A stretch of DNA of 64,000 nucleotides from Phycisphaerae bacterium. Lineage in GTDB: Bacteria; Planctomycetota; Phycisphaerae; UBA1845. The notes under the pieces were generated by a model that made no database searches, was not told the DNA's origin, and saw only the letters and a program-made list of their open reading frames with translations. Positions 54,620-56,251 of the stretch are shown one piece after another; position 1 is the first letter of the stretch, and every line of letters starts with the position of its first letter. Both the position numbers and the translations under genes were made by a program. The DNA lies in the NCBI GenBank assembly GCA_022072505.1, contig JAJVHU010000005.1:1-64000 (forward strand), written 5' to 3'.

Positions 54620-55999
54620 CTACGGACAGGTCACGCTCCTCGACAATCCGCAATCCGCGACTCGCACCGTGCCGCTGCCGCTCGGACATTCCTTCACCAC
54701 GACCTTCCCGCGGTTGTTCGCCGCCTTCTGCACGCAGTCCCCCGACGGCATCTCGATCGCGTAGACCTGCCCCGCGACGCCGCCCTTGAGCACCGCCTTC
54801 ACCTGGCATCCGCATCCCCGCGCCGTCGACGACGCCTTCAGCGACTCGCCGCCGCTGCACCGGGCGTTCGCGCTGCACCCGCCGCCGCTGCCCCGGCCGC
54901 TCTTGGCGATCCCGCCGCTGCTCAGACGCGCCTGCACGCCCCGAAGCCCGCTCGGCAGCCCTTCCGCCGCGCCGAGAATCTGGAAATCCTCCAGCAGCAT
55001 CTCCTCCGGCAGCGGGATCCACGCCTCCCACCCGTCCCCCGGCCCGTGCTGACCGTCGTCGTTCAGATCCACGCGGAACTGGAAGGGAACATTCTGCAGC
55101 AGCATGTCGTTCACACGGACGTTGCAAGGCCGCGGCTGGAAGTCCGTCGGCACGAAGATCGTCAGCGCGGGAACGTTCTCCGGCTCCAGCGCCATGTGCA
55201 GGTACACCGGCTCCCACAGAAACAGCGGATCCCACTGATAAGAGCCCCGCGAGAATTCGGTGCATTCCTTGTCCGCCGCGTCCTGATCTCCGTGATCCGT
55301 CACAAAGAGAATGAACTGCTCGTTCTCGTTCATCATCTCCTTGATCTCCTCCAGCGCGTCCTTGAGGCCTTCCTCCGTCGCGGGGTAGTCCCAGTCTCCC
55401 GTCCCGTCGCCGCCGACCGAGGTGACGGTCGTGTTCGCCTCGCCCGCGAAATTGTTCTCGATCGTCTCAAGCTGCTCCTCGTCGCTTGTGCCCCCGCCGC
55501 CGTCCGGAGACCCCGCGTACACGAGGATATGCCGGCTCTTGATCGGACCGTCCTCGGGATCGACCGGGTCCAGCGGAACGGCGTCGCCGGCTTTGCTCGG
55601 CGTCTCCCCGTCGCCGGCGTCGGCGGACCCGTCATTGTGAACGTCGTCCGACGTTCGTCCCGCGCCGGGTTTGAGCCCGCCCGCCGCGTCGTCGTCGTAC
55701 GCGCCGTACTCCGCCTGCTCGCCTTCACTGGTCGCGGAAATCACCGCCGTGTTCTCGCGCCCGTCGGAAAGGGCGTCCACCATGTTGCCCCCGTAACACT
55801 GCGTCAGCACGATCAGCGTGCTGTGCGCGTTGTCCGTCGGGATGTACTCGTCGAGCAGCTCCCTCAGCCGGTCGCCCGAAATCCCCTTGTCATCATCGGT
55901 GACCAGCGACCCGTTCTGCTCCGTCTGCGCCCACGCCGCCGGGACAAGGCTCGCCGCCAGTCCGAACACCACCGCGCCCATCAGATTCCTCGCGTACAT
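54620..55999 (-). CDS. Secreted caspase-fold (clan CD-like) protein with reversed motif order and C-terminal Cys-Pro module
   Basis: 459 residues from ATG 55999, with AGGAGG eight bases upstream. A signal peptide ends PAAWAQ. TLIVLTQCYGGN with Cys68 looks like the nucleophile strand of C13/C14 peptidases, followed by TAVISATSEGEQAEY. Much later QFILFVTDHGDQD with His236-Gly237 supplies the second half of the dyad. In normal caspase folds His-Gly comes first, so this protein appears permuted, or the two motifs belong to a distinct design. A long acidic Gly/Asp linker separates them. Residues about 370-459 are a Cys-rich domain ending CGLSRSVTCP, the module shared with three other exported proteins. 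Function unknown; extracellular processing is inferred. Confidence 0.75.
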   Translation of the reverse strand: MYARNLMGAVVFGLAASLVPAAWAQTEQNGSLVTDDDKGISGDRLRELLDEYIPTDNAHSTLIVLTQCYGGNMVDALSDGRENTAVISATSEGEQAEYGAYDDDAAGGLKPGAGRTSDDVHNDGSADAGDGETPSKAGDAVPLDPVDPEDGPIKSRHILVYAGSPDGGGGTSDEEQLETIENNFAGEANTTVTSVGGDGTGDWDYPATEEGLKDALEEIKEMMNENEQFILFVTDHGDQDAADKECTEFSRGSYQWDPLFLWEPVYLHMALEPENVPALTIFVPTDFQPRPCNVRVNDMLLQNVPFQFRVDLNDDGQHGPGDGWEAWIPLPEEMLLEDFQILGAAEGLPSGLRGVQARLSSGGIAKSGRGSGGGCSANARCSGGESLKASSTARGCGCQVKAVLKGGVAGQVYAIEMPSGDCVQKAANNRGKVVVKECPSGSGTVRVADCGLSRSVTCP

Positions 56000-56251
56000 G
56001 TGAAAACCTCCTCGATTACGCGGGCCTTCGCCCCGCACCCGTGACTTTGCGAAGCGCCGCGCGGCGCTCCTGAACCGGACCGACCGGCGTGCCCCCGCCG
56101 CGAGATTCCGACTCGGCGTCGCCTCGTCCTCGGCGGCGGGTCGTGCATCGCACGCCGTCGGTCCGTCCTTACTCCGCGACAGCCCGCGGCGTCCTTACAG
56201 ACGCAGGGTTAAGAAATGTAAAAACAAGGGCGGAAAGCGGACACGCAGCTC

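Follow-up and report, generated by a model that had tools for sequence, protein, structure and literature searches.

Does the protein encoded on the minus strand at positions 55999-54620 of the window (the whole 64,000-nt stretch of Phycisphaerae DNA analysed here) belong to the caspase/legumain-like peptidases of clan CD, with its two halves in the reverse of the usual order? In normal clan CD enzymes, the equivalent of the His half comes first and that of the Cys half comes second. The translation contains the motif TQCYGGN with the Cys at residue 68, VISAT downstream of it (residues 86-90), ILVYAG (residues 158-163) and TDHGDQD with the His at residue 236, all as listed in the sequence-only reading, which took the Cys part for the second half of a caspase/legumain domain, the His part for the first half, and the reversed order for the outcome of circular permutation. 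Cys68 stands 168 residues ahead of His236 and, as only a signal peptide precedes the Cys half, there is no room for the His part upstream of it. The comparisons described below indicate that this is very probably a cysteine peptidase of clan CD (caspase/legumain-like) that is exported and has a natural circular permutant as its catalytic domain (Table 1).

The 459-aa open reading frame is a real gene, as attested by a strong ribosome-binding site, the GC content by codon position (0.69/0.42/0.86), the dN/dS ratio and full-length relatives with 95% and 93% identity from the same genus (the BroJett003 Planctomycetota MAG and Phycisphaerae MAG_25). Strong purifying selection acts on this gene, with dN/dS of about 0.04-0.11 in comparison with the two same-genus genomes (NG86 and YN00, residues 1-349). 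An antisense frame of 332 aa (window positions 55046-56044, plus strand) covers nearly the entire gene; such a frame is expected because the GC content is high, and is unlikely to be a gene.

Table 1. Features of the permuted peptidase gene (window coordinates)
Feature	Residues	Position	Strand	Basis
Ribosome-binding site GAGGAGG		56007..56013	-	Sequence; 7 bases ahead of the ATG
Coding sequence of the 459-aa protein with stop codon		54620..55999	-	Reading frame; dN/dS 0.04-0.11
Signal peptide	1-25	55925..55999	-	By eye: positively charged N-terminus, hydrophobic segment, AWA-Q
Cys half of the clan CD domain (a3-b4-Cys-b5 plus the part beyond b5)	26-152	55544..55924	-	Pfam C13, family profile, model
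Codon of Cys68, predicted nucleophile	68	55796..55798	-	Invariant in the 11-row alignment; in all 15 members; aligned with metacaspase-4 Cys139
Linker region between the old C-terminus and the old N-terminus	110-157	55529..55672	-	Cyclic rotation scan: any cut here gives full collinearity
His half of the clan CD domain (b1-a1-b2-a2-b3-His)	153-240	55280..55543	-	Own profile comparison; model
Codon of His236 in TDHGD, predicted general base	236	55292..55294	-	Invariant in the 11-row alignment; in all 15 members; aligned with metacaspase-4 His86
Strand-rich region past the peptidase domain	246-349	54953..55264	-	Model, low confidence there; no Pfam match
Cys-rich C-terminal tail domain	374-459	54623..54880	-	Matches some 20 other places in this genome

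Residues 26-245 were taken as the catalytic region and, for the rotation tests, the His half was placed ahead of the Cys half, and the native and rotated versions were compared; because the two are identical in composition and residues, they serve as mutual controls. A Pfam search with the native protein aligns residues 32-103 to positions 124-193 of the Peptidase_C13 profile, i.e., to its Cys part, with an E-value of 0.002 and a score of 18.1-19.8 bits, below the curated cut-off (gathering score, 22.8), whereas with the halves swapped, the score is 29.8 bits. Among the members of the family delineated below, C13 matches are found for 4 of 11 native sequences vs 6 of 11 rotated ones. A profile search of the PDB started with the rotated family profile identifies metacaspase-4 with an E-value of 2.3e-6, in a single stretch (15-156), and many legumains, from 1e-4; with the native profile, metacaspase-4 is detected at 2.8e-4 in two stretches, and legumain fragments appear in inverted order. 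Inverted partial stretches of the native profile are 14-64, aligned to 112-155 of 6w8s (a metacaspase), and 168-242, aligned to 20-88 of 6w8r. In the rotated alignment, the His and the Cys of the family fall on metacaspase-4 residues 86 and 139, respectively (counted by hand on the alignment), and His86/Cys139 is the published catalytic dyad of this enzyme (PMC7206013). The window protein used as the query on its own matched no solved structure.

In hhalign runs against a first set of canonical planctomycete sequences, the native version scores 79.6, with the Cys half only, vs 131.9 over the whole domain for the rotated version (E-value 1.9e-19); against a wider canonical set, the Cys half alone scores 87 (1.9e-13), the His half alone 75 (1.6e-12), and the score goes from 90 (native, Cys half only) to 162 upon rotation (3.7e-24), in one alignment of positions 2-197 to 2-196, all these E-values being those of single comparisons that are to be judged alongside 20 column-shuffled controls, which score 7-18. 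The rise upon rotation is seen separately in each of the four subgroups of the family, including the window protein's own (62.6 to 96.5). When the native alignment is rotated at every tenth column, a plateau is reached only with the cut in window residues 110-157, the linker. The assignment of the Cys68 part to the second half of the domain and of the ILVYAG...TDHGDQD part to the first half is thereby upheld, and circular permutation is supported as the source of the reversed order, given that rotation replaces two inverted partial matches with a single collinear one over the full domain in three independent tests, against Pfam C13, solved structures and canonical relatives. What is established at the level of sequence is that the order is permuted, that this order is conserved, and that both halves are homologous to clan CD.

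Two AlphaFold2 models, built from four-sequence alignments, are of low confidence (pLDDT 57.8 and 62.8; pTM 0.59 and 0.69). At that confidence, the predicted succession of elements, namely helix, strand-Cys, helix, strand, linker, strand, helix, strand, helix, strand-His, matches a3-b4-a4-b5 followed by b1-a1-b2-a2-b3 of the caspase fold, which is the order of a permuted caspase fold (in model numbering, H17-27, E36-41 and E59-63 in the Cys half, and E130-137, H147-158, E165-170, H184-197 and E202-209 in the His half). In the low-confidence model, the His-Gly and the Cys each come directly after a strand, as at the ends of b3 and b4 in clan CD. Again at low confidence, the succession of elements fits the 2-1-3-4-5-6 sheet order of the clan. 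A Foldseek search of the PDB with both low-confidence models gave no clan CD structure among the matches listed (best E-values 0.035 and 0.15, unrelated folds); this result was judged uninformative because the models are of low confidence and Foldseek aligns in chain order.

The permuted arrangement is not confined to one genome. Fourteen permuted relatives were identified, 13 from Phycisphaerae and one from a Verrucomicrobia MAG, which makes a family of 15 members with the window protein; in all 15, from many genomes, the C-x-G-G motif comes first and the HG later, with 168-210 residues in between. The relatives include L020, L021 and L022 from other Phycisphaerae families, as well as L030-L036 and L044. 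The Verrucomicrobia protein (L015, 5938-7407; 37% identity) is the sole permuted member found outside Planctomycetota, and its presence there may reflect transfer or mis-binning. In an 11-row alignment of the permuted family, in which the relatives share 11-56% identity with the window sequence, essentially nothing but the Cys, a Gly and the His-Gly is invariant. When 396 genomes sampled from the class were searched with a 7-row family profile, 15 gave a match: 12 contain a permuted member, and the matches in the remaining three (G523, G482 and G470) are canonical-order or unclear. Four further candidates, L012 (E-value 0.0097), L054 (sulfatase-like), L071 and L079, were dropped as chance or unrelated matches. 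Searches of viral contigs and plasmids found no relatives, and no canonical C13 gene was found in the same genome with the Pfam model.

The same class and phylum also harbour clan CD cousins of canonical order (L023, L038 and L060); in L060, the His part of the family profile (155-243) matches upstream of the Cys part (8-152), in one frame. In a tree of the rotated and canonical sequences, all permuted members lie on one side of a single branch (86/76; 90% of bootstraps), with the canonical L060 as the nearest neighbour, at modest support and with long branches. A single origin of the permuted family is favoured by this topology but, with support below 95, not proved. Most likely, a canonical gene would have been duplicated and the outer halves lost, all on one occasion in a Phycisphaerae ancestor; how the permutation arose is directly testable because canonical-order cousins exist in the same phylum. 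A conserved HS (GEHS) is seen near the new N-terminus in L021, L022, L030-L036 and L044, that is, in all permuted subgroups except the window protein's own, which has NG/TG at this place; it is possibly a remnant of a second His-Gly copy left by a duplication, or a mere turn.

The Cys-rich tail domain of the window protein, of about 85 residues, follows the pattern GCGCQ.KAVLK...P.GDC..KAANNRGKVVVKECPS.SG...V..CGL...V.CP and has no match in a Pfam search. In all eight proteins inspected (the window protein and L002-L008), it finishes at or beside the stop codon, and the remaining parts of these proteins appear unrelated to one another; the domain is a candidate for a sorting or anchoring tag specific to the lineage. 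The strand-rich region that precedes it was considered as a family-wide feature and rejected: it has a clear match between subgroups B and C only (E-value 4.8e-6), a weak one between A and C, and none elsewhere, and is therefore not claimed to be common to the family. Other tails are discernible by eye in the permuted relatives, namely a PEP-CTERM-like anchor at the C-terminus of L044 (VIPEPAALSLLAAAGLVLIRRKRR) and dockerin-like stretches in L020, L021, L031, L032 and L036. Downstream in L020 (G708:C373), residues ~550-624 resemble a PDZ domain (PF13180, E-value 5e-4, under the cut-off); a PDZ-like domain downstream is the usual arrangement in secreted proteases. The permuted domain thus appears to be joined to several kinds of export tail, which vary by lineage and all fit export.

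The proposed arrangement is as follows. The signal peptide would carry the protein across the membrane, and the two halves would fold into a single caspase-type sheet, in which the linker bridges the former termini, one behind the final strand of the p10-like half and the other ahead of b1, and the chain now starts and stops in the gap between b3, the His strand, and b4, the Cys strand. Cys68 and His236 would then form the usual clan CD dyad, and the C-terminal tail would direct or attach the protein outside the cytoplasm. Peptidase activity is predicted for the permuted protein. The residue two positions before the Cys is Thr in the window protein and Ser, Asn, Gln or Ala in the relatives, in no case acidic; therefore, specificity for Asn or for Arg/Lys should not be presumed.

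The least improbable alternative, itself unlikely, holds that the permuted caspase fold is not an enzyme but a binding or structural module that retained the motifs. In planctomycete homologues of caspases, loss of the dyad is frequent (64% conserved, PMC3501461), and the acidic S1 residue ahead of the Cys is absent here; against this, the Cys and the His-Gly are nearly the sole invariant residues, even in members only 11-24% identical to the window sequence, and the gene is under strong purifying selection. Quite improbable is a domain-swapped dimer with the active site formed between two chains, in which case the reversed order would reflect swapping rather than intramolecular permutation. 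Intra- and inter-chain pairing are indistinguishable from sequence alone, and the old chain ends need a bridging linker, but every member has a long spacer separating the Cys half from the His half, and the monomer model with pTM of 0.69 holds all the strands in one domain.

The remaining two explanations carry very little weight. That the motifs arose by chance in an unrelated secreted protein might be surmised from the failure of Foldseek to list a clan CD structure among its matches and from the sub-cut-off Pfam score of the single native sequence; this explanation, very improbable, is refuted at sequence level by the fact that each half is significant on its own, by the gain upon rotation, and by the shuffled controls and the agreement of four subgroups. 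An assembly or binning artefact that fused two gene pieces has a negligible chance of being correct: the genomes are indeed metagenome-assembled drafts, but BroJett003 and MAG_25, which were assembled separately, carry the same gene, and its order recurs, without stops, in the Verrucomicrobia MAG and about ten other genomes, so that independent assemblies refute it.

If the reading as a natural circular permutant is correct, the permuted proteins comprise a new clan CD family that order- or motif-based searches overlook, and family counts made with canonical profiles can be suspected to miss such members, the window protein itself being below the Pfam cut-off. The family would also imply that the caspase fold tolerates chain ends between the two catalytic residues, and could offer single-chain templates for engineering.

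Among the known peptidases, MEROPS family C13 (legumain, asparaginyl endopeptidase; PF01650) is the best Pfam match for both the native and the rotated sequence and has the DHG and C-x-G-G motifs in common with it; the window sequence exceeds the gathering score only after rotation (29.8 vs 22.8). The halves are reversed compared to C13, the acid two positions before the Cys is missing, and no legumain prodomain was seen. In legumain, that acid is part of the Asn/Asp-specific S1 pocket. Metacaspases and orthocaspases (C14B) include the best solved-structure match of the rotated family profile, metacaspase-4, with the dyad in register; in C14B, however, His precedes Cys and the S1 residue is acidic, whereas in the window protein, Cys is first and the equivalent residue is non-acidic. 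With regard to the clan as a whole, the catalytic core is homologous, the His-Gly ends b3 and the Cys ends b4 in register with His86/Cys139 by alignment, and Cys68 precedes His236, as in all 15 members, in departure from the dyad order that is one of the criteria for assignment to clan CD (PMC4357240). The permutation explains this departure. By homology the domain belongs to clan CD, but by the order criterion it falls outside the clan; it is therefore filed as a permuted variant rather than as a member of C13 or C14. NCBIfam and PADLOC searches with the window protein gave no match, and therefore no link to a known defence system is drawn.

Rearrangements of cysteine peptidases have precedents of other kinds. 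In algal type III metacaspases, a natural rearrangement of the caspase fold, the p10-like part comes first (PMC5756287); as p10 alone is described as relocated, the His-Cys p20 remains internally intact, whereas here the break is within the p20 core, between His and Cys, and an N-terminal p10-like part followed by an intact His-Cys p20 is absent from the window protein. The engineered cpCasp2, in which the old ends are joined and the subunits swapped, is an active single chain (PMC7760212), but such permuted caspases are man-made, with the new ends between the subunits and the His-Cys order kept, unlike the natural Cys-His family described here. In the literature searched (few subscription journals, no preprints), no naturally permuted clan CD enzyme with reversed dyad order was found, nor any report of a chain break between His and Cys in the caspase fold. 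Natural permutations, some with reversed order of elements, are known in papain-like NlpC/P60 relatives, PPPDE and LupA (PMC10318531); these have another, unrelated fold and are alike only in being naturally permuted cysteine peptidases. The family probably represents an ancient, natural permutation, probably of single origin, inside the caspase-fold catalytic core, in exported bacterial peptidases with Cys-His order, the reverse of that in the clan CD enzymes of the literature searched.
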